Shown: piece by piece, positions 10,124-40,520 of the stretch
Layout of the letters: each line of letters begins with the position of its first letter
Position numbering within the stretch: the stretch's first letter is position 1
NCBI GenBank assembly: GCA_026394375.1
Contig: JAPKYJ010000014.1
Span: 1-40,520, forward strand
DNA: 40,520 nt
Source: Methanomassiliicoccales archaeon
Lineage (GTDB): Archaea; Thermoplasmatota; Thermoplasmata; Methanomassiliicoccales; UBA472
Direction of reading: 5' to 3'
Notes under the pieces: model-generated
The model's input: only the letters and a program-made list of their open reading frames with translations
Databases searched by the model: none
Told to the model about the DNA's origin: nothing
Position numbers and translations under genes: made by a program

Positions 10124-10125
10124 GC

Positions 10126-21886: not shown

Positions 21887-21910
21887 GCCCCGAGATTGGA
21901 ACTCTGGGAA

Positions 21911-22065: not shown

Positions 22066-22139
22066 GCTATCTGTCAGACAGTCTGGATGCCATGAAATCG
22101 ACAGCGATATGTTTAAGTGCGCAGTGCCTGTTATTGTTT

Positions 22140-22231: not shown

Positions 22232-22242
22232 GGGGGAGAGGT

Positions 22243-22602: not shown

Positions 22603-22675
22603 GGCTCATCTGCCAGCGTCAGTGGGTTGATGCCATTGGTCCGAGAACGTTTGTCTTTTCTGTTCATTCGCGGAC

Positions 22676-22689
22676 CTATATTTAAATAG
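22676..22689 (+). promoter_or_regulatory. TATA box of the CobW-type gene
   Basis: CTATATTTAAATAG, a strong, near-palindromic TATA element. It lies about 44-57 bases before ATG 22733, leaving a leader of about 25 bases. Confidence 0.6.
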
Positions 22690-22732
22690 GGTAGCTATAA
22701 TCCGTTTGCAGACGCGATACAAAGGTGCGCAA

Positions 22733-23326: not shown

Positions 23327-23770
23327 ATGATATCCGAGGATTTCACCGCCTACGCAGGCAAAATCCACGCGAGCTTCGATCGGGCGCAGAAAGCGGACGA
23401 CCTGAAGAGGATGGTCTCCACGACCATTTCCCAGATAGCGAAAGGCTGCGTGGAAGCTGGCACCAGGCTCATCGGGCACATCAAGTGCATCGCCGAGGTG
23501 GAGAGTGGGAAATACATCGCCTGCAGCGTCGTTTCGCATGATGCCGAAGCGGCGTGCCGCGGAGAACTGGCGGATGGTTCATACCGTCTGGACCTGGTCG
23601 TCAATGTGCTTATCTATGGTTTGGACAAGGAAAAGGTTGAGGGCATCGTCAACGCCACCGCGCGCAGGGTCTTCGAGGGATACGGAGCTAGGTTAGAGAT
23701 CGAGAACCTAGAATTCAAGGACTCGTCGCACCAATGCGAGGACGAGCACGACCACGAACATGATCACTGA
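23327..23770 (+). CDS. Unknown protein with a His/Asp/Glu-rich metal-binding tail
   Basis: Protein of 147 residues from an unrecognised family. The body is mixed alpha/beta with three Cys (GCVEAG, HIKCIAEV, ACSVV) and a later strand pair (RLDLVVNVLIYGLD). The tail is HQCEDEHDHEHDH, a clear metal-binding sequence. The ATG begins directly after the CobW stop, so the pair is translationally coupled. The His-rich segment resembles the metal loop usually found inside CobW proteins, so it may be the metal donor or acceptor for the GTPase. Confidence 0.75.
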   Translation: MISEDFTAYAGKIHASFDRAQKADDLKRMVSTTISQIAKGCVEAGTRLIGHIKCIAEVESGKYIACSVVSHDAEAACRGELADGSYRLDLVVNVLIYGLDKEKVEGIVNATARRVFEGYGARLEIENLEFKDSSHQCEDEHDHEHDH

Positions 23771-23781
23771 TGTGCACGCCC

Positions 23782-26175: not shown

Positions 26176-26200
26176 TGCTCATCGTCCAAGAAGAACGAAC

Positions 26201-26208
26201 TATAAATA
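26201..26208 (-). promoter_or_regulatory. TATA box of topA
   Basis: ATTTATA on the minus strand, 26-33 bases before ATG 26175. Confidence 0.55.
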
Positions 26209-26260
26209 ATTAGGCTCTGGGTCGGTCTGGCTCCCCGTTCCATCGGTCAAAGCCAGGATG

Positions 26261-26698
26261 CTAGTGCTCCTGCCCTTCCGCTTCTTCGAGAACCCCTTCT
26301 GCCATGATCACGGGATTCCCATGTAGCACCCCTTTGACGGCGCCTAGCTCGTCCGCGAGGGCCTGCAAGTGCCCCACAGTTCCCTTGACCACCAGCACCT
26401 CCAGGCAGCGGTCCAGGTCCAGGTGCACATGGATGGAAGAGGAGATGACCTGATGGTGCTGATGCTGGATGTCCATCAATCTCTCGCGCACCCCTCCCCT
26501 GTGATGCTCGTAGACCAAGGTAATCGTCCCCACTCCAGGACATTCTGGGTCCTTGATCTTCTCCTTTGTCAGGGCTTCTCGGATGAGGTCCCGAATGGCC
26601 TCGGATCGCGCCTCATAACCCATATTCTCGATAAGGGCGTCGAAGCTCTTCAGGAGTTCCGGTTCCAGAGAGACTCCGATGCGGGTGACGTTGTCCAT
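26261..26698 (-). CDS. nikR: Nickel-responsive regulator NikR
   Basis: Ribbon-helix-helix repressor of nickel uptake. The protein of 145 residues begins with the DNA-binding unit RIGVSLEPELLKSFDALIE and SEAIRDLIREAL. The C-terminal ACT-like metal domain has the high-affinity nickel set in HQHHQVISSSIHVHLDLDRCLEV (His, His and Cys of the square-planar site). It ends with ALADELGAVKGVLHGNPV. It lies 38 bases after the acyl-CoA synthetase gene on the same strand. Its targets are probably nickel transport or hydrogenase genes; hypA-hypD is in the same window but 5 kb away. Confidence 0.92.
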   Translation of the reverse strand: MDNVTRIGVSLEPELLKSFDALIENMGYEARSEAIRDLIREALTKEKIKDPECPGVGTITLVYEHHRGGVRERLMDIQHQHHQVISSSIHVHLDLDRCLEVLVVKGTVGHLQALADELGAVKGVLHGNPVIMAEGVLEEAEGQEH

Positions 26699-26736
26699 CT
26701 GAAACTATCTGAAGCGTTACGCGGAGAAAAACATTC

Positions 26737-28140
26737 TCATCCGGTCTCTTGCCAAGCTCCCACCCGCTGGAGGAACGTCCCTCGGTCGAAAAGGCAGCGC
26801 AGCCCGAACCCGGCCCGCCGGATAGTACTATAGGTAGGTATGCCCTCGCCATCCAATCGTCTCATGAACGGTAGGGGAAAGCTGCCACCCACGCAGCAGA
26901 CGGTCATGGGTTTCTTCCCTTGTCTGGCCCACTTGACGATGATATCCGCCAGAGCGAAGGTCATCCCCGGAGGCTCGAACTGCAGGAACAGAAGAATGCC
27001 GTCCACGCCTACATCCTCGTTCACGATCTCCAGGACGTGGTCGAACATCAGGTCCGTCACAGCCCCGGTCAGGTCGACGGGGTTTTCCACGGAAGCGAAG
27101 TAGGGGCTGATGCGCCGAATGCGTTCCCTGGTCTCCTCGCTCAGCTCCGCCATGTGCATGCCGAAACCGATGCTCTCCGAAGCGACGTAGTCGGTGGCGA
27201 TCACCCCGAAGCCTCCCGCGCTCCCCACGACGGCCACCCGGTCTCCGCCCATGGGCTTCAGATACGCCAAGGCCTTGGATGCATCCAGCATCTCCACCTC
27301 GTCCTTCGCTCTGATCACTCCGCACTGCCTGAGCACCCCACCGATCAAAGCGTCCGAGCCGGATGCCAATGCCCCGGTGTGCGAGAGCGCGGCCCTCGCG
27401 CCCCGCGGCGTGGTGCCCACCTTCGCTGCCACGATAGGTTTCTTGATGGCGACAGAGCGGGCCAGCTTTATGAACTCCCTTCCATCTTCGAAGGACTCGA
27501 GATACAAGGCGATGCATTTCGTCCCTTCATCATTGCCAAGATGACGAAGGAGGTCGTTCTCCATCAGGTCAGCTTTATTGCCCAAGCCTACGCAGGCCCG
27601 GATGCTGACCCCTTCCAGCTCCGCCCTCTCGTACACGCCGATGAGCACCGAACCGCTCTGGGACACCAGGGAGATGACACCCGGTCTGGGACGAGGGCTC
27701 CGTTCCTTAGGAATGAAGAAAGTGTCCACGCTTCCGGGCACCAACACCCCCACCGTGTTAGGACCAAGGATGCGGGTGGTCGTTCCTCTCACCTCCTCGC
27801 TCATCTGCCGTTGAATTTCCTTGCCGCTCTCCCCGATCTCCGAAAACCCTCCGGCAACGGGGATGATGAAATCGACGCCCACCGAGATGCATTCCCTGAT
27901 GGCGGTGATCACGTACTTGGCTGAGATTGCCAGCACAACGATGTTCACGTGCTCCGGAACGTCCCTGATGTTGGGGAAGCATCTCAGCCCGAGTACCTCC
28001 CTCTCACCTGGATTCACCGGGAATACCTTCACCCCGCTTTCCATCAGGTTCTTGGTGATGATGTTGCCTACCTTGCCTGCCGCGTCCGAAGCACCCACGA
28101 CCGCGACGGTCTGGGGGTGGAGAAGGGCGTTGAGGTCCAT
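26737..28140 (-). CDS. ADP-forming acetate/acyl-CoA synthetase, alpha-type subunit
   Basis: Conserves energy by turning acyl-CoA plus ADP and phosphate into acid, CoA and ATP. The protein of 467 residues has an N-terminal CoA-binding Rossmann unit (VAVVGASDAAGKVGN), succinyl-CoA ligase-like domains (ILGPNTVGVLVPG, VSQSGSVLIG), and the phosphorylated His in ALSHTGALAS. A third domain (VGSAGGFGVIATD, NPVDLTGAVTD) completes the alpha subunit; the ATP-grasp beta domain is absent and must be encoded elsewhere. ATG 28140 was chosen from family length and TATA TTATAA at 28169-28174; the frame stays open to 28539 by chance. Confidence 0.9.
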   Translation of the reverse strand: MDLNALLHPQTVAVVGASDAAGKVGNIITKNLMESGVKVFPVNPGEREVLGLRCFPNIRDVPEHVNIVVLAISAKYVITAIRECISVGVDFIIPVAGGFSEIGESGKEIQRQMSEEVRGTTTRILGPNTVGVLVPGSVDTFFIPKERSPRPRPGVISLVSQSGSVLIGVYERAELEGVSIRACVGLGNKADLMENDLLRHLGNDEGTKCIALYLESFEDGREFIKLARSVAIKKPIVAAKVGTTPRGARAALSHTGALASGSDALIGGVLRQCGVIRAKDEVEMLDASKALAYLKPMGGDRVAVVGSAGGFGVIATDYVASESIGFGMHMAELSEETRERIRRISPYFASVENPVDLTGAVTDLMFDHVLEIVNEDVGVDGILLFLQFEPPGMTFALADIIVKWARQGKKPMTVCCVGGSFPLPFMRRLDGEGIPTYSTIRRAGFGLRCLFDRGTFLQRVGAWQETG

Positions 28141-28168
28141 GGACGTCGCATCGATTGTCCTGGCGGAC

Positions 28169-28174
28169 TTATAA
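28169..28174. promoter_or_regulatory. Palindromic TATA element shared by divergent genes
   Basis: TTATAA reads the same on both strands. It is 29-34 bases before the minus-strand start 28140 and about 50 bases before the plus-strand start 28223. Confidence 0.5.
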
Positions 28175-28222
28175 CACTTCAGGGACACGTGGTTGCTCGG
28201 CGCACGCTCTCCTCCTGAGGAC

Positions 28223-29062
28223 ATGGTTATGTACGCTCCGAAGCATACTTCGCACATGGGTCGGGCGGACGAACTGCTGACGGCGCTGCGCGAGGCGACC
28301 GCGGAGCTCTGCGTGGACCGACAGATGGGCGTGCTTTTCTCCGGAGGCATCGACAGCACGCTCGTGGCCGCGCTGGCCGCCGAAAGGGTCCCGGTCCGGT
28401 TGTACACTATCGGACTCCCGGGCGCACACGACCTCCAGGTGGCGGAAGAGACCGCCTCCAGGCTGGGACTGGAATGGCGATCGTTGGTGCTCCAGGACCG
28501 AGAGGTGATCGATTCTCTTTTACCCCTCTCCCGCATCATCGGAAAGATAAGTCCCTTGCCTTTGTCCTTCGAAATGCCCCTTTACCTGGTGTGCCAAAGA
28601 GGAGAGGACAAAGCGTACCTCAGCGGCCAAGGAGCCGATGAGCTGTTCGGCGGCTATATGCGATACCTGTCCTTGCCCGAAGATATGCTCAGGATCAGCA
28701 TGCGGAGGGACCTAGAGGAATTGCTGGGCAATGGAGCATCGATGGAGAGATCGATAGCGCAGCGCTTCGGCCGTTCAATCGGTCATCCGTATCTCAGCCG
28801 GAAGGTGGTGGCGATAGCGAGCAACCTTCCTCTCACGGACTGCGTGCGCCAAGGTGCACGCAAGGCCATATTGCGGGACGTGGCGGCGCTGTTGGGCTTG
28901 GATTTCCTCGTGGATAGGGAGAAGAAAGCTGCGCAGTACGGGAGCGGAGTGATGAAGGTCATGAAGGCCGAGGCCCGACGACGGGGTGTATTGCTCGGAG
29001 ACCTCGTGGCGGACATCAGCGCGCGTGGAGAAAGAGTTAAGGGTGAAGGCATTCTTCCCTAG
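28223..29062 (+). CDS. Asparagine-synthase-like PP-loop ATPase (no amidotransferase domain)
   Basis: Protein of 279 residues with the PP-loop FSGGIDSTLVAAL at about 36-48, then YTIGLPGAHDLQVAEETA and SGQGADELFGGYMRY, the asparagine-synthase C-domain signature. It lacks the N-terminal glutamine-hydrolysing domain. It probably adenylates a substrate carboxylate or carbonyl, but which one is unknown. ATG 28223 has GAGGA immediately upstream; ATGs at 28229 and 28256 are alternatives. folC starts five bases after its stop, and nth overlaps folC, so the three genes form an operon. Confidence 0.8.
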   Translation: MVMYAPKHTSHMGRADELLTALREATAELCVDRQMGVLFSGGIDSTLVAALAAERVPVRLYTIGLPGAHDLQVAEETASRLGLEWRSLVLQDREVIDSLLPLSRIIGKISPLPLSFEMPLYLVCQRGEDKAYLSGQGADELFGGYMRYLSLPEDMLRISMRRDLEELLGNGASMERSIAQRFGRSIGHPYLSRKVVAIASNLPLTDCVRQGARKAILRDVAALLGLDFLVDREKKAAQYGSGVMKVMKAEARRRGVLLGDLVADISARGERVKGEGILP

Positions 29063-29067
29063 ACTGG

Positions 29068-30360
29068 ATGGACTACCAGGACGCGCTCGGGTGGCTCTTT
29101 GGGCTGGAGACAATGGGCATCAAGCTCGGACTGCAGAATATCACCGAGCTCCTGCATCGAATGGGAGATCCGCAGGAGCAGTTCCGCAGCGTGCACGTCG
29201 CCGGCTCCAATGGCAAGGGTTCGGTCAGCGCCATGACCGAGTCGATTCTTCGTCATCAAGGCTTTCGAGCAGGTCTGTACACCTCACCACACCTGGTCGA
29301 TTTCAGGGAACGCATCCAGATCAATGGTATGGTCATTCCGGAGACGACGCTCTGCCGCCTGGTGGAGGAGGCACGGGGGCACGTGGAGGACATGAGCCTG
29401 GTCTCCAAGGAAAGCCACCCCACTTTCTTCGAGGTGACCACCGCGCTAGCTTTCTCGCACTTCGCGGAGAATGGAGTGGAGGTGGCGGCAGTGGAGGTGG
29501 GCATGGGAGGAAGGCTGGATGCGACCAACGTCATATCTCCGGATTGCACGATCATCACTCGCATAAGCCTGGAGCACACTAAGTATCTGGGCACTAGTCT
29601 AGCCCAGATCGCTGGGGAGAAAGCGGGCATCATCAAGACTGCAGTCCCGGTCATAACTGCGGAATCATCGGAATCAGAGGCTTTTCCGGTCATCGTGGAG
29701 GTGGCCAAAGAGAAAGGATGTCCGGTACGCGTCGTCGGGCGGGACATCCAATGGCGATTGATCGACTCCTCTCTGCAAGGCACGCTCATAAGGATCGATG
29801 ATCTAGGCGAGGTCAGACTGCCATTGCTTGGATCGTTCCAGGGCGTTAACGCTGCCATGGCCTACGGCGCGGCAAGGGAGTTGAACCGGCGAGGGTTGGA
29901 GATCGAGGATGATGCTATAGTGAGGGGTCTATCGAACGTCCGCTGGCCGGGGAGATTGGAGATCGTGGGCACAATGCCATACGTCATTTTCGACGTCTCA
30001 CACACACCGGAGGGCGCAAGGGTGGTTGCCGAGGACATCGACAGACTATTCGGCCAGAAGGTGGTGTTGGTCCTGGGCGTGCTGGATGATAAGGACCTAG
30101 AAGGCATCGCCAGACATTTCGGTCGGATTTCAAAGTCCGCCATCGCCACCGCCCCTGCGACCCGGAGGGCATATCCGGCGGAGAGAGTGGCGGAATCCCT
30201 GCGTGGTCATGTTCCCAAGGTCGTCGTGGAGCGGTCAGTGGTGGAGGCATTGAGGAAAGGGTTGGCCAAGGCCTCTGTGGATGATGTATTGCTAGTGACT
30301 GGATCGTTGTATACCGTCGGTGAGGCCAAGGCCTGGTGGGATTTGCGTGAAGCCCGTTAG
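29068..30360 (+). CDS. folC: Folylpolyglutamate/dihydrofolate synthase-type Mur ligase
   Basis: ATP-dependent amide ligase of 430 residues adding glutamate to a pterin cofactor or joining dihydropteroate and glutamate. Motifs are the ATP loop HVAGSNGKGSVSA at about 43-55, TSPHLVDFRERIQING, EVGMGGRLDATNV, SLEHTKYLG with the metal-bound His, and the carbamylated-Lys region GEKAGIIK. The C-terminal domain has FDVSHTPEGA, where DxxHNP-type residues are normal. In an archaeon with methanopterin the acceptor could be a different pterin. It is in an operon with the asparagine-synthase-like gene and nth. Confidence 0.9.
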   Translation: MDYQDALGWLFGLETMGIKLGLQNITELLHRMGDPQEQFRSVHVAGSNGKGSVSAMTESILRHQGFRAGLYTSPHLVDFRERIQINGMVIPETTLCRLVEEARGHVEDMSLVSKESHPTFFEVTTALAFSHFAENGVEVAAVEVGMGGRLDATNVISPDCTIITRISLEHTKYLGTSLAQIAGEKAGIIKTAVPVITAESSESEAFPVIVEVAKEKGCPVRVVGRDIQWRLIDSSLQGTLIRIDDLGEVRLPLLGSFQGVNAAMAYGAARELNRRGLEIEDDAIVRGLSNVRWPGRLEIVGTMPYVIFDVSHTPEGARVVAEDIDRLFGQKVVLVLGVLDDKDLEGIARHFGRISKSAIATAPATRRAYPAERVAESLRGHVPKVVVERSVVEALRKGLAKASVDDVLLVTGSLYTVGEAKAWWDLREAR

Positions 30361-31042
30361 GGAGATCATGGAGGGAGTGAGAGAGGTATGCCCCGATGGC
30401 GTGTTCCCAGGTAGGGACGGCGATCAGGTCGCCGACTGGGAGGTGGACCCATTTCACGTGCTCATCTCCACCGTGCTTTCTCAGAGGACGAAGGACCAGA
30501 ACACCTTCCACGCCTCCGCTCGGCTGTTCGCAGAATATGATACGTCAGCGACTCTGGCCGCGGCTCCCCTCCGGCATCTGCAGGACCTCATTCGCCCCGC
30601 TGGCTTTCCCCAGGTCAAGGCCAGGGCGATCAAGGAGATCGCTCGCATCATTGTGGAGGAGAAAGGAGGCGAGGTCCCTAGCGACCTGGAAGAGCTGGTA
30701 TCCTTGCCCATGGTGGGGCGCAAGACCGCGAACTGCGTGCGCTCCTACGCCTTTCACATCCCCGCCATATGCGTGGACACCCATGTGCACAGGATCAGCA
30801 ACCGCATCGGACTCGTGAGAACCAAGGACCCAGAGAGCACGGAAATGGAGCTCATGAATGTCGTTCCCAAGGAGCTATGGATAGACGTCAATTCGCTCCT
30901 GGTGCGCTTCGGACAGAAGATATGCCTGCCACGAAATCCTAGATGCGGCCTCTGTCCCCTGACGAGCTGGTGCGACTACTACGCTCAACTGCAGAAGGGA
31001 AGACCCATGATAAGGTCAGGGCGCAAGAGGCCCAGGAAATGA
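30347..31042 (+). CDS. nth: Endonuclease III (DNA glycosylase/AP lyase)
   Basis: Base-excision repair enzyme removing oxidised pyrimidines. Landmarks are HVLISTVLSQRTKDQNT, the helix-hairpin-helix SLPMVGRKTANCV with the catalytic Lys nearby, and VDTHVHRISNRIGL with the catalytic Asp. The C-terminal [4Fe-4S] site is C-x6-C-x2-C-x5-C in CLPRNPRCGLCPLTSWC. GTG 30347 (231 residues) overlaps the folC end by 14 bases. ATG 30368, with GGGAG upstream, is the other plausible start. Confidence 0.93.
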   Translation: MKPVREIMEGVREVCPDGVFPGRDGDQVADWEVDPFHVLISTVLSQRTKDQNTFHASARLFAEYDTSATLAAAPLRHLQDLIRPAGFPQVKARAIKEIARIIVEEKGGEVPSDLEELVSLPMVGRKTANCVRSYAFHIPAICVDTHVHRISNRIGLVRTKDPESTEMELMNVVPKELWIDVNSLLVRFGQKICLPRNPRCGLCPLTSWCDYYAQLQKGRPMIRSGRKRPRK

Positions 31043-31333
31043 TCAGGTGCGCATGGACTCGTCAATCTTCTTGCGCATCTCCCGTTCCATCTGCAGCTCC
31101 GCCTCCCACTGCTCCAGCGTATCAAAGGTCTCCTTGAGCTGCTTCAGGCAATCAAGGCAGAAGTAGCGTCCGCCGATGTTCTTCATCGGCTTTCTCTTAT
31201 AGCCCACCATGCCACAAATCCAGCAGGAGTGCATCTCCTTGGTCATGTGCTCGACGTAGGCCTCCATCTTTCGGCCCTCGACGATGGACTCGAGGGTAGC
31301 GGCCTTCTTCGTCCGGCGCTCCCCTGCTGGCAT
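31043..31333 (-). CDS. Small zinc-binding protein of unknown function
   Basis: Protein of 96 residues. A four-Cys zinc site (CWIC at about 36-39 and CLDC at about 58-61) is flanked by basic residues, and a charged C-terminal coiled coil (LEQWEAELQMEREMRKKIDE) follows. I do not recognise a named family. The chosen ATG is about 30 bases after TATA at 31355-31365; a GTG at 31354 would add seven residues. It ends directly at the convergent nth stop. Confidence 0.7.
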   Translation of the reverse strand: MPAGERRTKKAATLESIVEGRKMEAYVEHMTKEMHSCWICGMVGYKRKPMKNIGGRYFCLDCLKQLKETFDTLEQWEAELQMEREMRKKIDESMRT

Positions 31334-31354
31334 GAGCGATTCAATCCTCCTCAC

Positions 31355-31365
31355 GATTTAAGTAG
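31355..31365 (-). promoter_or_regulatory. TATA box of the small zinc protein gene
   Basis: CTACTTAAATC on the minus strand, 22-32 bases before ATG 31333. Confidence 0.45.
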
Positions 31366-31433
31366 ATTGCCGTTCTCGTGATTGCTGGCTCGCGGAACCC
31401 GGTCACTGAAGAGGCGATGCAAGCCGGCAAGCG

Positions 31434-31443
31434 CATAAATATC
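31434..31443 (+). promoter_or_regulatory. TATA box of the hypA-hypD operon
   Basis: CATAAATATC, 20-29 bases before ATG 31463. Close to leaderless spacing. Confidence 0.55.
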
Positions 31444-31462
31444 CGGTCCCGAATCAGCAAGC

Positions 31463-31837
31463 ATGCACGAGGTCTCGGTCATGGCCAGCATCATCGAGAG
31501 GGTGCTCGCCGAACTCTCCAAGCACCAGGTGGAGAAAGTGGAGGAAGTGGACCTCGTCATCGGCGAGCTCACTTTCCTGGGCGAGGAGCAGCTTCGCTTC
31601 GCCTTCGAAGTGCTCACCCGGGACAACATTCTCGCGGGGTCGCAGCTCAACATCTCTCACGAGAAAGTGGAGGTGAGCTGCACGGCCTGCGGCTATCAAG
31701 GTGGCGTGCAATACGTTGATGAGCTCGCAGACCACATGGTCATCCCCAACCTGGTGTGCCCGAAGTGCGAAGCTCAGATAGAGGTCACCAAGGGCAGGAG
31801 CTGCGGCGTGACCTCGGTGAAGGTGGTGGAGAAGTAG
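31463..31837 (+). CDS. hypA: Hydrogenase nickel-insertion protein HypA
   Basis: Nickel metallochaperone for NiFe hydrogenase maturation. The protein has 124 residues. N-terminal MHEVSVMASII carries the nickel-binding His2. The zinc-structural motif is CTACG...CPKCE (Cys pairs at about 74-77 and 97-100), with family strands VEEVDLVIGELTFLG. The stop abuts the hypD ATG. Nickel supply would be set by NikR, encoded at 26261. Confidence 0.95.
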   Translation: MHEVSVMASIIERVLAELSKHQVEKVEEVDLVIGELTFLGEEQLRFAFEVLTRDNILAGSQLNISHEKVEVSCTACGYQGGVQYVDELADHMVIPNLVCPKCEAQIEVTKGRSCGVTSVKVVEK

Positions 31838-32911
31838 ATGTTCCGTTTCCGTGACCAGGACACAGCCAAGAAGGTCGTCGATTCCATCGCTGATTTTGGC
31901 ATCAAGGCCCGCTTCATGCACGTCTGCGGCACTCATCAAGACACTCTGGTCCGCTTCGGTTTGCAGGAGATGCTGGAGCAAGCGGGGGTGAAGATAGGAC
32001 AGGGCCCGGGATGTCCGGTCTGCGTCACCACGACCAAAGAGATCGTGGAAGGCATCACCCTGGCCAAGAGCGGCATCACGGTGGCGGTGTTCGGTGACAT
32101 GATGACCGTGCCCACGCCCATCGGCTCGTTGGCGGATGCCAAGGCCGAAGGCGCGGATGTGCGCGTGGTATACTCGGTCGAAGATGCGATCAAGCTGACG
32201 ACCACGGCCAAGAACGTGGTCTTCATGGCCATTGGGTTTGAGACCACCAGCCCGACCACTGCCTCGATCATGTTGACCAAGTTGCCCTCTAACTTCTCCG
32301 TGCTCAGCTGCCATCGCATCTTGCCCCCGGCCTTGGACGCTCTCTTCAAGCTGGGCGAGGTGCGCATCGAAGGCCTCATCCAGCCGGGGCACGTGGCCAC
32401 GATCATCGGCACGCATCCGTTCGAACGCTTTTCCCAGGAGCGCAAGATACCTCAGGTGGTGGCCGGTTTCGAGCCGCTGGATCTATTGATGGCCGTGTTC
32501 ATGCTGGTCAAGCAGATCGCCGAAGGTCGGCACGAGGTGGAGAACGAGTACACCCGCGTGGTGAGGCCGGAAGGCAATCCCAAGGCCATGGCGATGCTGG
32601 AGCGCGTGTTCGAACCGGTGGACAGGGCCTGGAGGGGCTTCCCCGAGATCCCCGGAAGCGCTCTGGAACCTCGATCCGAATTCAGCGATCACAACGCCCG
32701 GGTCCTCCATTCCGAATCCATCCGCAACGCCCCGGAGGTAAAGGAGGAGATGGGAAGTTGTCGCTGCGGGGAGGTATTGCGAGGCATCATCGAATCGAAC
32801 GAATGCCCGGTCTTCGGCCGCGGTTGCTCCCCACGGAGACCGATGGGTCCTTGCATGGTCAGCCGTGAGGGCAGCTGCAACATCGCCTTCCGCTATGGCC
32901 GAAAGACATAG
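31838..32911 (+). CDS. hypD: Hydrogenase maturation factor HypD
   Basis: Scaffold iron-sulfur protein that, with HypC, builds the Fe(CN)2CO unit of NiFe hydrogenases. The protein has 357 residues, the normal length. Conserved Cys motifs are HVCGTHQDT and GPGCPVCVT. The C-terminal [4Fe-4S]/redox set is CRCGEVLRG, CPVFGRGCSPRRPMGPCMV and EGSCNIAF. FMAIGFETTSPTTA is the family core. It starts on the base after the hypA stop. HypC, E, F and B are not in this window. Confidence 0.96.
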   Translation: MFRFRDQDTAKKVVDSIADFGIKARFMHVCGTHQDTLVRFGLQEMLEQAGVKIGQGPGCPVCVTTTKEIVEGITLAKSGITVAVFGDMMTVPTPIGSLADAKAEGADVRVVYSVEDAIKLTTTAKNVVFMAIGFETTSPTTASIMLTKLPSNFSVLSCHRILPPALDALFKLGEVRIEGLIQPGHVATIIGTHPFERFSQERKIPQVVAGFEPLDLLMAVFMLVKQIAEGRHEVENEYTRVVRPEGNPKAMAMLERVFEPVDRAWRGFPEIPGSALEPRSEFSDHNARVLHSESIRNAPEVKEEMGSCRCGEVLRGIIESNECPVFGRGCSPRRPMGPCMVSREGSCNIAFRYGRKT

Positions 32912-32939
32912 GTTCGTCGAGTCATAGTCCTCGGCCCGC

Positions 32940-33521
32940 TCACCTTCCTCGGGTTAGGATGAGAACCGAGGTCGTCCCTCCCCAAAGCATTATTGAAATG
33001 ACTGCCACGGGCTCCGCCATCGGGACTGTCATCGTCCCCACCAGCACGATGATCGAGACCACCGGTGCAGCAATGGTCAAAAACAGACCGACCTTCCCTA
33101 TGACCTTCGACCGTCGCACTGGCCAGATGAGGGCCAGAAGGGCGATCATGAACAGGGAGAAGAAAGCCCAGCTGAATAAGGTGTGGACGCTTCCCGCCGT
33201 GACGGGGAAGAGGCCTATGCCGATGAGCGCAGCCGACGCTACCAACATCAGAGCGCAACCGATGCGCGACATCCAGTCTTTCCTCAGGGCGGTATAGAGC
33301 GCCGGAGTGAAGGCGACCATCATCGTCCCTGCCAGGACGATTCCGATGTTGAACAGGCACTTCCCCGGCCGGTCCCCGCCGAGATCGCTCAGGGTCTCCA
33401 CGCCGAAGATCCAGTGGCCGTCCGCGACCACAGCGGAGGTCCAGAGGATTGCGAAGCCCACCGCTCCAAGCAGGCCGGCTAGCGCGCTTGGCAGGATCCA
33501 CCACGGTTTGGACTCAGGCAT
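32940..33521 (-). CDS. DUF998-family membrane protein
   Basis: Integral membrane protein of 193 residues with six predicted hydrophobic segments (from WWILPSALAGLLGAVGF to the last one near VAVISIMLWGG). The loop after the first segment has VETLSDLGGD and the second begins with NIGIVLAG, both typical of DUF998. Function is unknown. ATG 33521 is about 30 bases downstream of a GATATT-type TATA (33544-33552); a GTG at 33530 adds three residues. Confidence 0.8.
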   Translation of the reverse strand: MPESKPWWILPSALAGLLGAVGFAILWTSAVVADGHWIFGVETLSDLGGDRPGKCLFNIGIVLAGTMMVAFTPALYTALRKDWMSRIGCALMLVASAALIGIGLFPVTAGSVHTLFSWAFFSLFMIALLALIWPVRRSKVIGKVGLFLTIAAPVVSIIVLVGTMTVPMAEPVAVISIMLWGGTTSVLILTRGR

Positions 33522-33589
33522 ATGGTCCACATCCGCATCGCAGGAATATCAATCTCGGCCTTGCTATCTAGAACAAAGGCGAAGTATTC

Positions 33590-33648
33590 ATCTCCCCTAC
33601 CACATACAGGTTCGAGCGCGACGCCCTGCGCCGCACTAGAGGGGAGAT
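33590..33648 (+). promoter_or_regulatory. Leader hairpin covering the ribosome site of the CorA-like gene
   Basis: ATCTCCCCT (33590-33598) is perfectly complementary to AGGGGAGAT (33640-33648), which contains the ribosome site just before ATG 33652. The 41-base loop holds further short complementary pieces (CAGG with CCTG; GCGC with GCGC). Formed in RNA, the stem would hide the ribosome site. This looks like translational control, but no known riboswitch class is recognisable. Confidence 0.5.
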
Positions 33649-33651
33649 AGC

Positions 33652-34833
33652 ATGGAGACCGGTTCGAAACCCGGATCTGCGAGTGCGGTTCAGAATGATG
33701 CAACCAGCGCAACCGCACCCGGTCCAGCGCCCGAGACCAAGGGGCAGAAAAAACCCAGTGGGGTGTGCGTCGCCCTGGTCCATGGTGGGAAACCGATCAA
33801 GCTGCAGGGGGACAGCCCCGCGGAATTCATTCCCACGATACAGGCCTCAGCTCTCGCCTGGATCAATTTTCCACTCCGAGACCTGGAGAAAGAGGGAACG
33901 GAAATCGCGGCCAAGTTGGGATTCAGCGACAACTTCGTCACCACCCTCCTGAAAGGAAGCTACTCAAATTACGAGGACAGGGAAGCAGAGCTAGGCATAC
34001 TCGTCCCCGCGGTTCGCATCACCGGGCTGGAGGTGCAAAGGTTCAGCCTCATCGTGCTCATCCGCAAGAACCTCATCCTCACCATGCACAATGAGGAAGT
34101 GACGCGGTTCGTACAGTTCTCCCGCTACGCGGACGTGTTCCTGCGGAAGCTGCCCGAAAGCATGCCCGGGGAGGATAAGCTCACCAACATGCTCGTCCGC
34201 ATACTGGATGAGAACAACAATCGCAATTTCGAGCAGCTGCGAGAGATAGAAGAGCAATCGGACTGGCTAAGCAAACAACTGGCAGATCCCAAGTCGCTCA
34301 GGGAACCCCTAGGCCGGAAGATCTATGAGATGAAGCACACCCTCATCGCTTACTTGAGCAACCTCTGGGCCACAGTGGACGTGCTCAACTCCCTACGGTT
34401 CGGAGATGCGGACGTGATCACCGACAACACCAAGGTGCTTTCCAAGATCACCTTGCTCATCGATGACGTCAACCGCCAGATCTCTCTTTCTGAGCATACC
34501 TCGGAAGTGCTCGCCTCTGGTCTGGAGGTGCTGCAATCCCTCTACAACAATCAGCTGCAGACGTTGAACAACCGCATGACCTTGGCGGTGACATGGCTCA
34601 CCATCCTAGGCACAGCGGTGCTAGTGCCGAACACATTGGCGACTTTCGTTAGCTCCCTCGCCGGCATGGATGAGAAGATGCAGCTGTGGTACTCGCTCGT
34701 GTTGGTACTCGCCACGGTGAACTCCACCTTACTGGCCTGGTGGTGGGTGAAGAACCGCATCATACTCCCTCGTTCTGGAGCGGATACTGCCGTCCTGGCG
34801 AAGGAAGCAGACATCCGGGTCAGAAAGAAGTGA
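33652..34833 (+). CDS. CorA-like divalent cation transporter lacking the GMN motif
   Basis: Membrane protein of 393 residues with the CorA layout: a large cytoplasmic alpha/beta and helical domain (to about residue 300), then two membrane segments at the C-terminus (TLAVTWLTILGTAVLVPNTL near 305-325 and YSLVLVLATVNSTLLAWWWV near 345-365). The usual GMN selectivity motif between the two helices is absent; the equivalent place has VPNTLATFV. It may carry another ion or act as a divergent CorA. The first ~45 residues are low-complexity. The ATG follows GGGGAG by five bases, inside the leader hairpin. Confidence 0.8.
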   Translation: METGSKPGSASAVQNDATSATAPGPAPETKGQKKPSGVCVALVHGGKPIKLQGDSPAEFIPTIQASALAWINFPLRDLEKEGTEIAAKLGFSDNFVTTLLKGSYSNYEDREAELGILVPAVRITGLEVQRFSLIVLIRKNLILTMHNEEVTRFVQFSRYADVFLRKLPESMPGEDKLTNMLVRILDENNNRNFEQLREIEEQSDWLSKQLADPKSLREPLGRKIYEMKHTLIAYLSNLWATVDVLNSLRFGDADVITDNTKVLSKITLLIDDVNRQISLSEHTSEVLASGLEVLQSLYNNQLQTLNNRMTLAVTWLTILGTAVLVPNTLATFVSSLAGMDEKMQLWYSLVLVLATVNSTLLAWWWVKNRIILPRSGADTAVLAKEADIRVRKK

Positions 34834-35102
34834 GCGCCAGGCGACCAATCCATCTGGAATGCGCCATATTCGGTAAATTCATCCAGGCTCAGTTGGAATA
34901 GCTTTTGCGTTCTGGGTCGTATGGCCCTGATGGAGGAATCGATTTGGCATCGCAGAGATTGCTGGAACGGCTGAACAAAGCCATCGCTTGGGAGATGCAG
35001 GTCAGTGTGCAGTGTATGTGGCAGCATGTGCGTCCTACGCTTCGATGGGCGAACTGGATCAATGCTCACCCCCTTTCGGTTCGAATTATCCACTAGGGCA
35101 AA

Positions 35103-35110
35103 TCATATAG
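35103..35110 (+). promoter_or_regulatory. TATA box of the DEAD-box helicase gene
   Basis: TCATATAG about 40-47 bases before ATG 35150. The rest of 34834-35149 (316 bases) holds no convincing gene; a 63-codon frame there looks like chance. Confidence 0.4.
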
Positions 35111-35149
35111 CCAAGCTCCATTATCGGTGGTTATTCAGCGTGGATCAAT

Positions 35150-36556
35150 ATGCCTCAGAGTTTCGAATCCTTGAAGATAGATGAGCGCATCATGCGCGCC
35201 ATCCGGAAAGCGGGTTGGCAAGAACCCACCCCAGTGCAAGAGGTGACCATACCACTCTTGTTGCAGGGAAAGGACGTCATGGCGCAGGCGCAGACCGGTA
35301 CGGGCAAGACCGCGGCTTTCGGCATCCCCATTCTCCAGTGTCTGAGAAAGGGAAAGAAGCCCAAGGCGCTAGTCCTGGCGCCCACGCGAGAACTAGCGGT
35401 CCAGGTCTCTGAGGAGCTGGGTCGGCTGGGCGAGTTCATGGGTTACCGCATTTTGGCCGTTTACGGCGGCACTTCCATCGAGAACCAGTTCGCAGAGCTG
35501 CAGAAAGGAGTGGAAGTGATCGTTGGCACGCCAGGTCGTGTGATCGACCATATGAAGCGAGGAACATTGGACCTGCGCGACCTCAACTTCCTCGTCCTGG
35601 ATGAGGCCGACCGTATGTTGGACATGGGGTTCATCGACGATATCCGCTGGATCCTATCCAAGTTGCCGAAGAACCGCATGACCATGCTCTTCTCCGCCAC
35701 CATACCGAGCGATGTGAGGGAGTTGGCCGCGCACTATATGCGCAATCCGGAGACGCTGATCATCAGCGAGGATGAGCTCGTTCTCCCTTCCACCGAGCAG
35801 GTGTATTTCAACGTCGGGCGGCGGAACAAGATATGGGCGCTGTGCCGGGTCCTGGACCGAGAGAAACCCAAGGCCATAATCTTCTGCTCCACCAAGCGCA
35901 TGGTGGACATTCTCACTCGCGCCCTCGTCTCCTACGGTTATCCGGCGGTGGCGCTCCATGGGGATCTCACGCAGGCGAGGAGGGAGAAGGTGCTCCAGGA
36001 CTTCCGCGAGAGCAAGGTTAACTTCCTGGTGGCAACGGACGTGGCCGCCCGGGGACTGGACATCGAGGGAGTCACCCACGTGATCAACTACGACGTGCCG
36101 GAGAATCCCGAGGTCTACGTGCACCGCATCGGAAGAACGGGAAGGGCGGGTAAGGAAGGCAAAGCGATCACCTTCGTTACCGCGGAGGAGCAGCACCTGC
36201 TCAGCAGCATCACCGACTTCTCGGGCGCGGGGGTGAAGAAAGAAGATGTTCCCGAAGTCGCCGGCAGGGAGACGGTGAGGAAGGTCTGGGACTTCGACGA
36301 GATGGCCGACATCTTCGGCATGGTCAAGTTCCGCATCAACTTCGGCCGCAAAGACAAAGCGACCAGCGCTGACCTCTCCGATCTCATCACCCGACTGGCC
36401 AGGATAAGCGACATGGCCGTGGGACACATCGATCTGGGCGAGTCCGAAAGCATAGTGGAAGTTCACCGGGATGTGGCCCTGAGGACCATGAGCGCCATGC
36501 GTGGGGCTCAGTCCAAGGGGAAGAAGATCACCTTCGAGCCGTTGCAGAAGAGGTAG
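35150..36556 (+). CDS. DEAD-box RNA helicase
   Basis: ATP-dependent RNA helicase of 468 residues. The Q-motif region is GWQEPTPVQ, motif I AQTGTGKT is at 47-54, and motif Ia is PTRELA. Then come TPGR, motif II DEAD at about 151, motif III SAT, and the second RecA domain with CSTKRMVD, ATDVAARGLD and HRIGRTGR at about 325. A C-terminal extension of about 90 residues resembles the RNA-binding domain of DbpA/CsdA-type helicases (FGMVKFRINFGRKDKATSADL). It probably acts in ribosome assembly or RNA unwinding. Convergent with the small basic protein gene. Confidence 0.94.
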   Translation: MPQSFESLKIDERIMRAIRKAGWQEPTPVQEVTIPLLLQGKDVMAQAQTGTGKTAAFGIPILQCLRKGKKPKALVLAPTRELAVQVSEELGRLGEFMGYRILAVYGGTSIENQFAELQKGVEVIVGTPGRVIDHMKRGTLDLRDLNFLVLDEADRMLDMGFIDDIRWILSKLPKNRMTMLFSATIPSDVRELAAHYMRNPETLIISEDELVLPSTEQVYFNVGRRNKIWALCRVLDREKPKAIIFCSTKRMVDILTRALVSYGYPAVALHGDLTQARREKVLQDFRESKVNFLVATDVAARGLDIEGVTHVINYDVPENPEVYVHRIGRTGRAGKEGKAITFVTAEEQHLLSSITDFSGAGVKKEDVPEVAGRETVRKVWDFDEMADIFGMVKFRINFGRKDKATSADLSDLITRLARISDMAVGHIDLGESESIVEVHRDVALRTMSAMRGAQSKGKKITFEPLQKR

Positions 36557-36561
36557 GCTCT

Positions 36562-36876
36562 CTAGCGGTAGAGCGTGTATTTGTCAAGGAGCTGGCAGAG
36601 ATAATCCGAGACATCCTTTCCGTATCCTCCCCGGGTTTCCACCTCGCGCACGTAATCCTTGGCCTCATTGATAGAGACCCGGGAGGCTTTGGCGATCATA
36701 TTGGCGATGACCGAGGACGCCAATGCCTCGTCCACCTTCGATTCGGCCAGGACCTCGCGGACATCGTACTTGAAAACACCTTCCCGCCTAAGATTCAACA
36801 TCGCGGTCCTGGTCCGCGTGGTTGGTTTCCTTTCGGTCTCAAATCTTCGTCCAGTGCGTCGACGGTACCTACTCAA
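36562..36876 (-). CDS. Small basic protein of unknown function
   Basis: Protein of 104 residues starting at TTG 36876. The N-terminus is very basic (SRYRRRTGRRFETERKPTTRTRT), then come helices (FKYDVREVLAESKVDEALASSVIANMIAKAS; SINEAKDYVREVETRG) and the end DYLCQLLDKYTLYR. It could bind nucleic acid, but no named family is recognised. The TTG is supported by a strong TATA at 36912-36924; ATG 36801 is the first standard alternative. Two inverted repeats lie between the TATA and the start. Confidence 0.7.
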   Translation of the reverse strand: MSRYRRRTGRRFETERKPTTRTRTAMLNLRREGVFKYDVREVLAESKVDEALASSVIANMIAKASRVSINEAKDYVREVETRGGYGKDVSDYLCQLLDKYTLYR

Positions 36877-36883
36877 GAGGATC

Positions 36884-36907
36884 GAATACTCCCGGGGTAT
36901 TCACCCC
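36884..36907. promoter_or_regulatory. Overlapping inverted repeats at the transcript start
   Basis: GAATAC-N7-GTATTC (36884-36902) and GGGGT-ATTC-ACCCC (36894-36907) share bases between the TATA and the start of the small basic protein gene. The position suits an operator; as RNA the second would form a tight hairpin. Confidence 0.4.
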
Positions 36908-36911
36908 GAAT

Positions 36912-36924
36912 GATATATTTAAAC
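36912..36924 (-). promoter_or_regulatory. TATA box of the small basic protein gene
   Basis: GTTTAAATATATC on the minus strand, about 36-48 bases before TTG 36876. Confidence 0.55.
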
Positions 36925-36992
36925 ATTTTGGGTGAAATCATCTCTCCAGGCGCATTCCTGGGTCTGAAAGCATCCTTTCTGCAATTGGACTA

Positions 36993-37021
36993 TGAATGAT
37001 TGGGTCATCTTGTATCATTCA
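36993..37021. repeat. 8-bp inverted repeat TGAATGAT/ATCATTCA
   Basis: Perfect 8-bp arms with a 13-base spacer, 19 bases beyond the 3' end of the ferredoxin gene. It may be its terminator hairpin or a protein site. Confidence 0.4.
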
Positions 37022-37039
37022 CGCGCTCGGAATGGGCGC

Positions 37040-37915
37040 TCACTCGGCCGTCACATCCACCAATGGCTCGATGCGCTCGATGGCCCGCTCCATGAAGCCT
37101 CGGTCGGTGATCCTCAGGGAGATGGCGCCCTTTGGACATATCTCCACGCACCGGGCGCATCCACGGCAGGTTGCCTGGTCGATGACCGCCTTCTTGTCCA
37201 CGATCTTCATCGCGCCCAAGTAGCAGGGATGCTTCTCCACGCAGGTGCCGCAACCCACGCACTTTGAGGCATCCACTATCACCTCCACTCCGGGCATCTT
37301 GGTCACGGTGCCAGCGATGCTCGAGTTCACGTTCGGAAGCATTTTCCATAAGCAGCAACAGGGACAGCAGGAGCATATGGATAGAAGGTTCTCCTTCTTC
37401 GTGCCTAGCCAGACGGAGTCGATCTTATCCCGGCCGATAAGGTGCACCAGGCCCGCCTCGCGGCACTTGCGCAAGTGCTCAAGCGCCTCTTCCATGGATA
37501 CCAGCCGTCCCATCTTAAGATCGATCTTGGTCACATCCTTTCCCAGGAAGATACAACCAAGGTTCGCGGGATAGTGCTCGCAGTGGTTGGAGCTGCGGCA
37601 CATGCAGCAGTTCATGAGGAAGCGGTATCTCGATTTGCGGATGAAATGCTCGATGACCTGCGAGGGCACCATGATGTTGGATGGCTCAGCTTGGACGTTC
37701 AGGTCGATGGTCCTGCGCTTCGCCTGCGTAGCTATCGCCACCTCGTCCTTGGGCAGGATGATTATGTCATCGCCACCGAAGAAGGCGATCTCCATGGTCT
37801 TGCCGATCAAGGGGACCTTCGTCATCTTGGCCAGGAAGAAGCGTTTCTTGAAACCGCTGCGAATGAGCCTGGTGTAGAGAGGGGTCATTCGGCCCATGCT
37901 CCAGAAGATGCCCAT
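37040..37915 (-). CDS. Cys-rich 2x[4Fe-4S] ferredoxin-domain protein
   Basis: Protein of 291 residues. The C-terminal ferredoxin domain has two cluster motifs, CVGCGTCVEKHPC and CRGCARCVEICPKG (about 218-265). In front of it are two other Cys groups: CCMCRSSNHCEHYP at about 102-115 and SICSCCPCCCLWK at about 180-192, more than the ferredoxin needs. The N-terminus (about 1-30) is basic and hydrophobic without a clear membrane helix. It may bind extra clusters or metals. It lies 38 bases after the ACT-domain gene on the same strand, so the two are probably cotranscribed. The physiological partner is unknown. Confidence 0.85.
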   Translation of the reverse strand: MGIFWSMGRMTPLYTRLIRSGFKKRFFLAKMTKVPLIGKTMEIAFFGGDDIIILPKDEVAIATQAKRRTIDLNVQAEPSNIMVPSQVIEHFIRKSRYRFLMNCCMCRSSNHCEHYPANLGCIFLGKDVTKIDLKMGRLVSMEEALEHLRKCREAGLVHLIGRDKIDSVWLGTKKENLLSICSCCPCCCLWKMLPNVNSSIAGTVTKMPGVEVIVDASKCVGCGTCVEKHPCYLGAMKIVDKKAVIDQATCRGCARCVEICPKGAISLRITDRGFMERAIERIEPLVDVTAE

Positions 37916-37953
37916 GCGGCGGTTAATGCCTTTCTATGAAGGTTGCTTGTTGC

Positions 37954-38352
37954 TCAGGTCCGGCTGCTAGCATCCAGATGTTCCATACCTATTCCCTCGA
38001 GGGCCTCTACCGCGCGAGAAAGGTCCTCCCTGGGGATGAGGATATGGTCGGTCTCGAACGAGGAGATGACGAACACCGGCACATCCACCTGGGCAAGAGC
38101 ATCCGTGACCAGTGCCAGGAAGCCTATCAGATCTTGGGGCAGCTTGACCTCGAACGTTAGCAGACGGTAGCGCCCCTTCCTCTTCTTGCCGATGACAGTG
38201 TAGCGACCTCGATGGTGGACGATCGCGAACGCATCTTGTATATCGAGAGTCTCAACATCCAAGGCCAGATCGTAGTCATCCGCGCTCACACTGAAGCCCA
38301 CCCGGTTCGTTCGAAGGAATTCCTGAGCCCGCACGATACGAGAACGCTCCAA
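37954..38352 (-). CDS. ACT-domain protein
   Basis: Protein of 132 residues of the type with tandem ACT-like halves. The N-terminal FLRTNRVGFSVSADDYDLALDVE is followed by FAIVHHRGRYTVIGKK, then LTFEVKLPQDLIGFLALVTDALAQVDVPVFVI with SSFETDHILIP. Such proteins bind amino acids or act as regulatory subunits. The start is TTG 38352, because no ATG is available before the conserved part. The gene precedes the ferredoxin gene. Confidence 0.75.
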   Translation of the reverse strand: MERSRIVRAQEFLRTNRVGFSVSADDYDLALDVETLDIQDAFAIVHHRGRYTVIGKKRKGRYRLLTFEVKLPQDLIGFLALVTDALAQVDVPVFVISSFETDHILIPREDLSRAVEALEGIGMEHLDASSRT

Positions 38353-38457
38353 GCGATGATTAGCCTTCTTATCGCTCGCTCGCGGGACTCTGAGTTGCCA
38401 GTTTGTGAGGAGAATACTAATACACTGAAGAATTACTCCAATGGCCTGGGGCAGAGA

Positions 38458-39051
38458 ATGAACGTCGGGCTCTTCGTCATGATATATGTGATCTGCGCGG
38501 CACTGTCCTTCCTGATCCGGCTAGCCTTCATGATGAGGATCGAAGAAAGGGGGGCCAGGAGGGGTTCTAGACTGGACCAGTTCCTGGTCGCTATGGTCGT
38601 TACGAGCATGGTGTTGCCATTGATCTTCATTCTGACCCCGATCTTGAACATCGCCAATTACTCGCTGCCCGACCCCGTTGCTTGGATCGGCGTTCTACTG
38701 ACCGCAGGGTCGCTCCTATTGTTGTGGAAATCCCATGCTGATCTGGGTACCAACTTCGCCCTTTCACCGAGCGTGAAGGGCAAGCAATCGCTTATCAAAC
38801 GAGGCATCTACCGCCGCGTCCGGCATCCGATGTACGCTTCGCTTTGGCTTTGGGCCTTCTCCATGCCACTTCTGCTCCAGAATTACATTGTGGGGTTCAT
38901 CTTCCTGATCTTCTTCAGTGCTTTCTACTTCGAGCGCGTGCCGCTGGAGGAGAAGATAATGAAGGAGAAGTTCGGGAAGGAATACCACGATTATATGTTG
39001 GAGACAGGGAGGGTCATTCCCAAGTTGAGGCTGTCTCGCCGGACGAATTAA
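38458..39051 (+). CDS. Isoprenylcysteine carboxyl methyltransferase-type membrane protein
   Basis: Integral membrane methyltransferase of 197 residues. Four to five hydrophobic segments (from VGLFVMIYVICAALSFLI to IVGFIFLIFFSAFY) are followed by the ICMT/PEMT signature: GIYRRVRHPMYASLWLW with the SAM-binding RHPMY, then FERVPLEEKIMKEKFGKEYHDYM. The substrate is unknown; a lipid or a small-molecule thiol is possible. ATG 38458 is preceded by GGGGCAGAGA. It is divergent from the ACT gene, though a gap of about 105 bases separates them. Confidence 0.85.
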   Translation: MNVGLFVMIYVICAALSFLIRLAFMMRIEERGARRGSRLDQFLVAMVVTSMVLPLIFILTPILNIANYSLPDPVAWIGVLLTAGSLLLLWKSHADLGTNFALSPSVKGKQSLIKRGIYRRVRHPMYASLWLWAFSMPLLLQNYIVGFIFLIFFSAFYFERVPLEEKIMKEKFGKEYHDYMLETGRVIPKLRLSRRTN

Positions 39052-39271
39052 CACTCGAGTCTAGGATTACGAAGATGGGGGGAAGGATTGCCATTGTGCG
39101 GCATGGTCAATGCTCGGCAGTTGGCACTTCTGCCCTGTATTGACGTAGAGAGTGCGGAAGAAGTCCACCAAGCTCTGTTCCATCATGAACCTCCATTTGG
39201 CATTCTCTCTCACCCTCAGTGGAAATCATTGACTACCGAGATTGACATCTAGCCCAGGTGGGGTGAAAAGG

Positions 39272-39547
39272 GTGGACCTCGTTCTTGAACTGCTGATCGT
39301 TTACTTCATTGTAAACGTGATATCATTCATCCTTTTCGCGGCTGATAAAAGGAAGGCGAAGATGAATCGGAGAAGGATATCTGAGAGAAGGCTGCTGTCG
39401 ATGGCAGCTATAGGTCCCTTCGGAGCCTACGCTGCGATGAAGGCCTTCAGGCACAAGACGAGGAAAACCAAGTTCATTCTAGTGCCATTGATGATGGTAG
39501 TGCATATCGCGATAGTCTCTTTTCTGATCTACAAGTTCATGATCTGA
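39272..39547 (+). CDS. DUF1294-family small membrane protein
   Basis: Protein of 91 residues from GTG 39272. The first membrane segment (LELLIVYFIVNVISFILFAA) is followed by the family motif DKRKAKMNRRRISERRLLSMAAIGPFGAY. A second segment near the end (FILVPLMMVVHIAIVSFLIY) completes the DUF1294 layout. Function is unknown. GTG 39263 is an alternative; AGGTGGGG upstream serves as ribosome site. The ~220 bases before it hold no other gene I can support. Confidence 0.75.
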   Translation: MDLVLELLIVYFIVNVISFILFAADKRKAKMNRRRISERRLLSMAAIGPFGAYAAMKAFRHKTRKTKFILVPLMMVVHIAIVSFLIYKFMI

Positions 39548-39747
39548 GAATGCACACCCCCCAAAAGCCGATGGCGTCTGGGATGAGAGACAAGCGACGC
39601 TAGAGATCGAGTTCCTCGTGGCGGCCGCAGAACCGACTTGGAAAGGAGGGACTCTGAAACCCTGTGCTCTTGTCAAATCGACCGACTCCTACAGGACCTT
39701 GTTCCTGACAGATGTCAACATTCCGTGGCTCCCCAGTCCCTGAAAAA

Positions 39748-39776
39748 CTCATTTCACTTTTCCTTCTATCTTTCAA
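39748..39776 (+). terminator. Pyrimidine-rich tract, possible transcription terminator
   Basis: A stretch of T/C-rich sequence (CATTTCACTTTTCCTTC and on) lies about 200 bases after the DUF1294 gene. Archaeal termination often occurs at T-tracts without a hairpin. The rest of 39548-39819 shows no gene. Confidence 0.3.
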
Positions 39777-39819
39777 TCAGGGAAAGCGATCCCGGCTTGC
39801 TCAATATTCGAGTGCACGA

Positions 39820-39890
39820 TGGTGCGGGCGTCGGGATTTGAACCGATGCCGAGCCAGACACTCGTTTTCCGAATTCGATTGAGTCGGATT
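39820..39890 (-). other. Degenerate class II tRNA 3' portion (anticodon arm to CCA), possible att site
   Basis: On the minus strand: an anticodon-type stem TCCGA/TCGGA with an oversized loop containing CTCAA, a long variable arm CGAG/CTCG, a T-arm with loop TTCAAAT but an irregular stem (ATCGG against CCCGA), acceptor 3' strand CGCCCGC, A, and encoded CCA. No 5' acceptor (GCGGGCG) or D-arm exists on the 5' side; an AT-rich gene lies there instead. The long variable arm says Leu or Ser type, and CTCAA would suit Leu(CAA). This is what the distal end of an element integrated into a tRNA gene looks like. Confidence 0.6.
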
Positions 39891-40520
39891 GCACAAACCC
39901 TTTTCTTTACTTACTACCTACTAATAGCAGCTACCATCAAGAAATAGATTAGATTGGCTATGATTAAAGCCAAGAAAAGTTTTATTCTGCTTCTAAGAAA
40001 AATTGAATCCGGATAGCTTTCTCGATATCTAGGTACAATAATCTTGAATATTACTACTGGACCTAATATTAACAGACACACCATTCCCACTCCCGTCATG
40101 GTACTATTTCTGGGAATCCATCCTATGCCCCAAAAATACGTAAGACCGTATGAAAAAACGAGTTCCGACACATAAAACCAAGCTATTATTTTAGCAATTG
40201 GCTGGTATTGCGTAGATGTGAATTTGCCTATCAACCAAATCATAAGTGTTAAAAGCAGAGGGACAACCACAGCCCTTGCTGCTTGCATTGATGAAGGAAC
40301 ATCAGAAGGATAAACAAGCCAGAATATATCTGGAAACTGGCTCATTATCCCAACGACTATGCCAATTATTATTACTAACGGCCTTGTTGCAAAAGTCAAC
40401 TGACGGATTCTGAAGCATAATTATCGTTTGTTATCTATATTGTTACCAAAATTAATATGTGTGGGCCAACCTATTGCCAGCTGTCAAAGAAGGTAATAGA
40501 TTGGTTGCCACGATACTCGA
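39891..40520. mobile_element. AT-rich edge of a probable integrated element (continues beyond the window)
   Basis: Base composition changes sharply to AT-rich at the tRNA portion and stays so to the window end, unlike the GC-rich DNA before it. It contains one AT-rich membrane-protein gene. With the tRNA fragment oriented so that its missing 5' half faces this DNA, the intact tRNA and an integrase would be expected further to the right. Nothing past 40430 is recognisable. Confidence 0.5.
39914..40399 (-). CDS. AT-rich five-helix membrane protein, unknown
   Basis: Protein of 161 residues starting at TTG 40399. Five hydrophobic segments can be seen (LVIIIGIVVGIMSQF; VVVPLLLTLMIWLIG; IIAWFYVSELVFSYGL; MVCLLILGPVVIFKIIV; LFLALIIANLIYFLMV) and no motif I recognise. 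Codon use is AT-rich, quite unlike the rest of the window, which supports recent transfer. TTG is supported by a TATA-like GATAATTATGC at 40415-40425. The stop is TAG, 23 bases from the tRNA portion. Confidence 0.7.
   Translation of the reverse strand: MTFATRPLVIIIGIVVGIMSQFPDIFWLVYPSDVPSSMQAARAVVVPLLLTLMIWLIGKFTSTQYQPIAKIIAWFYVSELVFSYGLTYFWGIGWIPRNSTMTGVGMVCLLILGPVVIFKIIVPRYRESYPDSIFLRSRIKLFLALIIANLIYFLMVAAISR

Follow-up and report, generated by a model that had tools for sequence, protein, structure and literature searches.

Candidate distal attachment site of tandem integrative elements in tRNA-Gly(GCC) of a Methanomassiliicoccales archaeon, with inverted arms shared by elements at other tRNA genes

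The window analyzed here is a complete contig (C14) of 40,520 bp from a Methanomassiliicoccales MAG with 31 contigs, a total size of 1.73 Mb, and 99.8% completeness. The GC content is 0.58 over positions 1 to 39821, 0.50 over 39001 to 39821, and 0.38 over 39905 to 40520, with the fall located at a tRNA-like fragment whose element side lies to the right (Table 1). A preliminary description of the window had placed the tRNA-bounded edge of integrated DNA here, and this holds, with a tRNA 3' end lacking its 5' half at 39820 to 39845 on the minus strand and the GC content falling at that place. From the orientation of the fragment, the same description predicted an integrase and the intact tRNA beyond the right end of the window. 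Since C14 ends at 40520, this prediction was tested on other contigs of the MAG (C3, C9, C10, C16, and C19) and on related genomes in an order-wide comparison (G005, G006, G007, G009, G017, G025, G034, and G040), and both the tRNA and the integrase were found on C3. The 0.6 kb of element DNA inside the window contains no integrase; its 161-amino-acid ORF had no match in a Pfam search and is absent from every other genome of the order. The final stretch of the contig is a multi-copy repeat, not unique element DNA, and probably caused the assembly break at the right end of C14. C9 was considered as an extension of C14 and rejected, as the match is a common repeat end. The element had been called AT rich, a label that suits the final 0.6 kb of the window and the similar left end of C3 but not the element adjoining the tRNA, which is GC rich.

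Table 1. Features assigned in the window from sequence, with the basis of each assignment
Feature	Position	Strand	Basis or remark
Chromosomal flank	1..39821	.	Genes at 30.3-37.9 kb lie near tRNA-Gly(GCC) in G006, G007, G017, and G025
First chromosomal-flank bases	39812..39821	-	Resemble sequence past tRNA 3' ends in relatives
Putative attachment core, 23-bp copy of the tRNA-Gly(GCC) 3' end, T-loop to acceptor strand	39822..39844	-	Identical to C3:30724-30746, with mismatches on both sides
Proximal box of the putative attachment (P) arm, ..ATCGAATTC..AAAA..TGTCTGGCTC	39850..39890	-	Arm model R1 and weight matrix minus the window fragment
Distal box of the putative arm, GAAAAGGGTTTG	39894..39905	-	Similar spacing in other fragments; inverted beside tRNA-Arg(CCT) and tRNA-Gly(CCC)
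Unique AT-rich element DNA	39906..40378	.	GC 0.38
ORF of 161 aa, hydrophobic	39914..40399	-	First codons overlap the repeat at 40380
IS-end-like repeat, in which the contig stops	40380..40520	.	100% to C9:1-141 (-), 77% to C10:370-521 and C3:3539-3660

The minus strand of the core reads GGTTCAAATCCCGACGCCCGCAC, and elsewhere in the genome it is matched exactly only by the 3' end of an intact tRNA-Gly(GCC) gene at C3:30725-30798 (minus strand). The two copies have the same orientation and form a direct repeat across two unjoined contigs, and the fragment and the tRNA are oriented like opposite ends of a single insertion. The fragment had been taken for a class II tRNA of the Leu/Ser type running from the anticodon arm, with an attachment site reaching from the anticodon loop to the 3' end; instead, the exact match is to tRNA-Gly(GCC), only 23 bp are tRNA, and the shared segment extends from the T-loop to the 3' end. 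In keeping with the earlier view that no complete tRNA fold lies at this place, ARAGORN, run with and without introns, found zero tRNAs in the whole window, and Rfam found zero tRNAs in 39000 to 40520. In the first bases of the chromosomal flank, the tRNA gene probably has its original trailer, an assignment that stays tentative on the resemblance given in Table 1. Elsewhere in the window, another stretch resembling a tRNA 3' end, again lacking the 5' half, lies at 345 to 403 on the minus strand, just upstream of the ORF at 419 to 2644, and its GGTTCGAATCCGGCTGAGCCC is identical to the 3' end of tRNA-Val; an arm of the family described below was looked for alongside it and not found. In the tRNA set of the MAG, genes for Leu(TAG), Ser(GGA), Glu(CTC), and Arg(CCG) were not found, introns are present in several tRNAs, and the T arm of Lys(TTT) at C16:27987 contains additional DNA.

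The stretch at 39845 to 39905, formerly assigned to an anticodon arm and a class II arm with irregularities in the anticodon loop and T-stem attributed to decay, is by its sequence a conserved attachment arm and not tRNA. A BLAST search with the window fragment yielded similar sequences in G034, G040, and G005. A pattern search of the 147 genomes of the order found 7 loci in 6 genomes (the window and 6 loci in 5 others), and a reversed control pattern found zero loci in the same 147 genomes. The loci in G007 and G009 were new and share upstream sequence as well, beyond what the pattern required. The aligned loci have a constant GAAAAGGGTTTG, about 20 nt, and then ATTGAAATCA.AAAA..AATGTCTGGCTC, followed by the tRNA-Gly-like end. 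This end follows the host, as the G009 fragment and the presumably intact tRNA-Gly site both have an unusual GTCCGAATCC. The named relatives with the arm feature are Methanomassiliicoccales or Methanomassiliicoccaceae MAGs. Pattern matches in IMG/VR, Lachnospiraceae, Kordiimonadaceae, Desulfovibrionales, and Atopococcus came without the arm and were taken as chance. Another pair of sequences related to each other, at about 980 to 1130 of G034:C17 and about 990 to 1160 of G040:C19, has a GGAAAAGGTTTG box, degenerate tRNA-like ends, and CTGACACTTCTGAC.

The arm model was built from the sequences of 17 arms, and its training members match by construction. With a weight matrix made without the window fragment, the arm scores 26.2, compared with 8.9 for the next site in the window and at most 10.5 in shuffled windows; the resemblance exceeds chance. 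A wider scan detected arms in 26 of the 147 genomes at an E value of ≤0.001. An intact tRNA (Val, Gly, Ala, Glu, Leu, or Lys) stands no more than about 20 nt from 12 of the 21 inspected arms that the model did not include, and tRNA acceptor fragments come after several of the remaining arms. On C3, the reverse complement of the arm motif is found directly past the 3' end of the intact tRNA-Gly(GCC), so that the proximal box of the window is inverted relative to the arm beside the intact gene. In the downstream regions of the 41 tRNAs of the genome, this inverted partner scores 38.5, second to that at tRNA-Arg(CCT) with 39.0, and the maximum in 2,050 shuffles was 33.5. Because the tRNA-Arg(CCT) arm matches the arm of the fragment equally well, arm similarity alone cannot name the partner.

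The distal box is archaeal-promoter-like, yet it is more likely a component of the arm. Its likeness to a promoter, together with the conservation of the adjoining stretch across several genomes, initially favored a small RNA gene or a split-tRNA 3' half, in which GAAAAGGGTTTG would be the promoter and the conserved stretch, T-arm, and acceptor end a transcript to which the missing 5' half is joined in trans. The pairing of the T-stem in G009, which is kept despite one base differing from the tRNA, also fits a functional RNA. The T-stem is mispaired, however, in the window fragment, G034, and G040, the genome has an intact tRNA-Gly(GCC), and this reading was dropped after the conserved stretch was found inverted beside intact tRNAs and inside the ends of integrase genes, which leaves a small RNA or split tRNA very unlikely. 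A coding origin of the conserved stretch was likewise rejected for the arm of the window, as no long open frame enters it; for some integrase-side arms, the coding explanation holds.

The integrase on C3 is a PF00589 protein (C3:30076-30606) whose gene reads toward the 3' end of tRNA-Gly(GCC) as one open frame with the C terminus at the tRNA. The gene is unsplit, so the SSV-type integrase proposed before does not apply. Other arms of the genome adjoin related PF00589 integrases. At several loci, the integrase gene terminates inside the arm, giving a C-terminal tail such as NPLIDKKFEVTGYA, and the arm at the opposite edge is non-coding. Conservation of the arm in its coding and non-coding forms alike points to selection at the DNA level. 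Casposons and other transposons with terminal inverted repeats would likewise place inverted repeats at the ends of the element, with the tRNA 3' end as the target, and tandem casposon insertions in archaea have been described (PMC6563490). An origin of this kind is nevertheless extremely unlikely, given that the proteins adjoining the arms are PF00589 integrases with genes often ending in the arm, that no Cas1-like protein occurs among the island proteins tested, and that the duplicated core is a specific tRNA end.

The same design is seen at tRNA-Gly(CCC), which occurs twice in the MAG, once occupied (C19) and once with an empty-type flank (C16). On C19, an element of about 5 kb (region 44700 to 49760) has its attL at the tRNA (49687 to 49758; arm at 49638) and its attR near 44758 next to an integrase, with an 18-bp core, CCCGGCAGCCGCACTCTC, common to both. 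At C16:1-150, tRNA-Gly(CCC) is directly followed by sequence like the attR flank of C19, forming a near-clean pair with it. Both forms of this design are thus present in one assembly.

Between tRNA-Gly(GCC) and the left end of C3, a second attachment core, GTGCGGGCGTCGG, is located at C3:20328-20340 (13 bp), with an arm at 20357 to 20393 and an adjoining integrase remnant at C3:19826-20326, which indicates that the island is a tandem array. Core size varies along the array, being 23 bp on C14 and 13 bp at C3:20328. Element 1 spans about C3:20341-30723 (10.4 kb) and encodes ParB, a DUF5906/D5-type primase-helicase, and the integrase. A further arm at C3:8733 adjoins a tRNA-Pro-type core with a second arm; this core between two arms, at C3:8690-8770, resembles an unused attP within the island. 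A DDE transposase fragment lies at C3:1037-1324.

In related genomes, LeuRS and the genes from C3:30861 onward lie 5' of tRNA-Gly(GCC), and the C14 genes lie on the opposite side (G006, G007, and G017) or close by (G025). The G007 island at tRNA-Gly(GCC) contains three arm-plus-core copies in the orientation of the tRNA, the last near a helicase gene at 209041, and beyond the island the homologs of the C14 genes 37040, 35150, and 31838 follow in that order. The adjacency in relatives of genes from C14 to those past the tRNA on C3 indicates that C14 and C3 flank one island. These sequence comparisons support one island lying between C3 and C14, with 39822 to 39905 as its distal attachment site, and the two contigs would be physically joined via unassembled DNA. 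An end overlap between C14 and C3 was looked for and not found, and no assembled sequence links C14:40520 to C3:1. Both flanks are found near tRNA-Gly(GCC) in G006, G007, G017, and G025, yet no clean empty junction occurs among the four. The fragment could alternatively be the worn scar of a departed or decayed element unrelated to the present elements on C3, the two sites sharing just their tRNA target. The unjoined contigs, the unequal core lengths of the sites, the equal similarity of the arms of several elements, and the gathering of multiple elements at tRNA-Gly(GCC) in G007 are all compatible with such a scar. It is an unlikely reading all the same, as the 23-bp core retains full identity to the tRNA, the C14 and C3 flanks are neighbors in relatives, and no other genome of the order has the AT-rich DNA that lies to the right of the fragment, which is the expectation for an insertion.

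The site is very probably attR, the distal attachment site of tandem integrative elements in tRNA-Gly(GCC). The sequence features behind this assignment are the duplicated core, the inverted arms, the adjacent integrase, the second core within the island, and the syntenic flanks. An element-encoded tyrosine integrase would recombine the attP of a circular element with an attB formed by the 3' end of the tRNA gene. The attP would consist of a short tRNA core faced on each side by an inverted arm of about 40 to 60 bp; one of the arms often enters the 3' end of the integrase gene, and the other is non-coding, such as 39845 to 39905. As attP would carry a copy of the tRNA 3' end, the tRNA would stay whole at C3:30725-30798 and its displaced tail would be left at 39822 to 39844. 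By what is generally known of tyrosine recombinases, such recombination is expected, the arms are predicted integrase binding sites, and the elements may be mobile now or may have been so formerly. A broader proposal is that attP is modular in the Methanomassiliicoccales relatives, with one tyrosine-integrase family, constant inverted arms (one often encoding the enzyme C-terminal tail NPLI(E/D)KK...TGYA), and an exchangeable tRNA core. Elements would then switch between many tRNA genes by a change of core alone, and the site in the window would represent a single worn distal arm of this system; we regard the case for this proposal as evenly balanced.

The integrase at a tRNA, the intact tRNA at one edge, the duplicated 3' end at the other, and the tandem insertion at one target are shared with tRNA-integrated archaeal tyrosine-recombinase elements, including thaumarchaeal ones (PMC8371274 and PMC6563490, respectively); unlike in those elements, a constant inverted arm flanks the core here and is common to elements at many tRNA genes. 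SSV1-type (suicidal) elements likewise use the 3' part of a tRNA as the attachment site, but the att of SSV1 extends as far as the anticodon loop and is located within the integrase gene, a gene that integration splits (PMC8371274), whereas the core here starts from the T-loop and the gene is whole at the tRNA edge. A lambda-type attP is likewise larger than the small core that it has in common with attB and carries recognition sequence beyond that core (PMC8371274). It differs from the present design, in which near-symmetric inverted-repeat arms, with a predicted binding role, lie beside the core, one often overlapping the 3' coding end of the integrase gene. In archaea, att sites are known to range from 8 to more than 100 bp and to require nucleotides beyond the shared core (PMC8371274), and tandem integration has also been described (PMC6563490); the element type is therefore not new. 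In the available portions of the open-access literature, no description was found of constant inverted arms that recur among elements with many different tRNA targets, and such arms flanking a variable tRNA core are the sole variant aspect.

tRNA genes are frequent insertion sites of archaeal mobile DNA, and to our knowledge, target-specifying determinants are known for few integrases. The arms described here are alike while the core varies (Gly, Val, Leu, Ala, Glu, Lys, Met, and others), which makes the roles of core and arm separately testable. The arm motif locates element borders that are missed by tRNA finders and Rfam, and a degenerate "tRNA 3' half" in these archaea need not be a split or decaying tRNA but can be an attachment scar.
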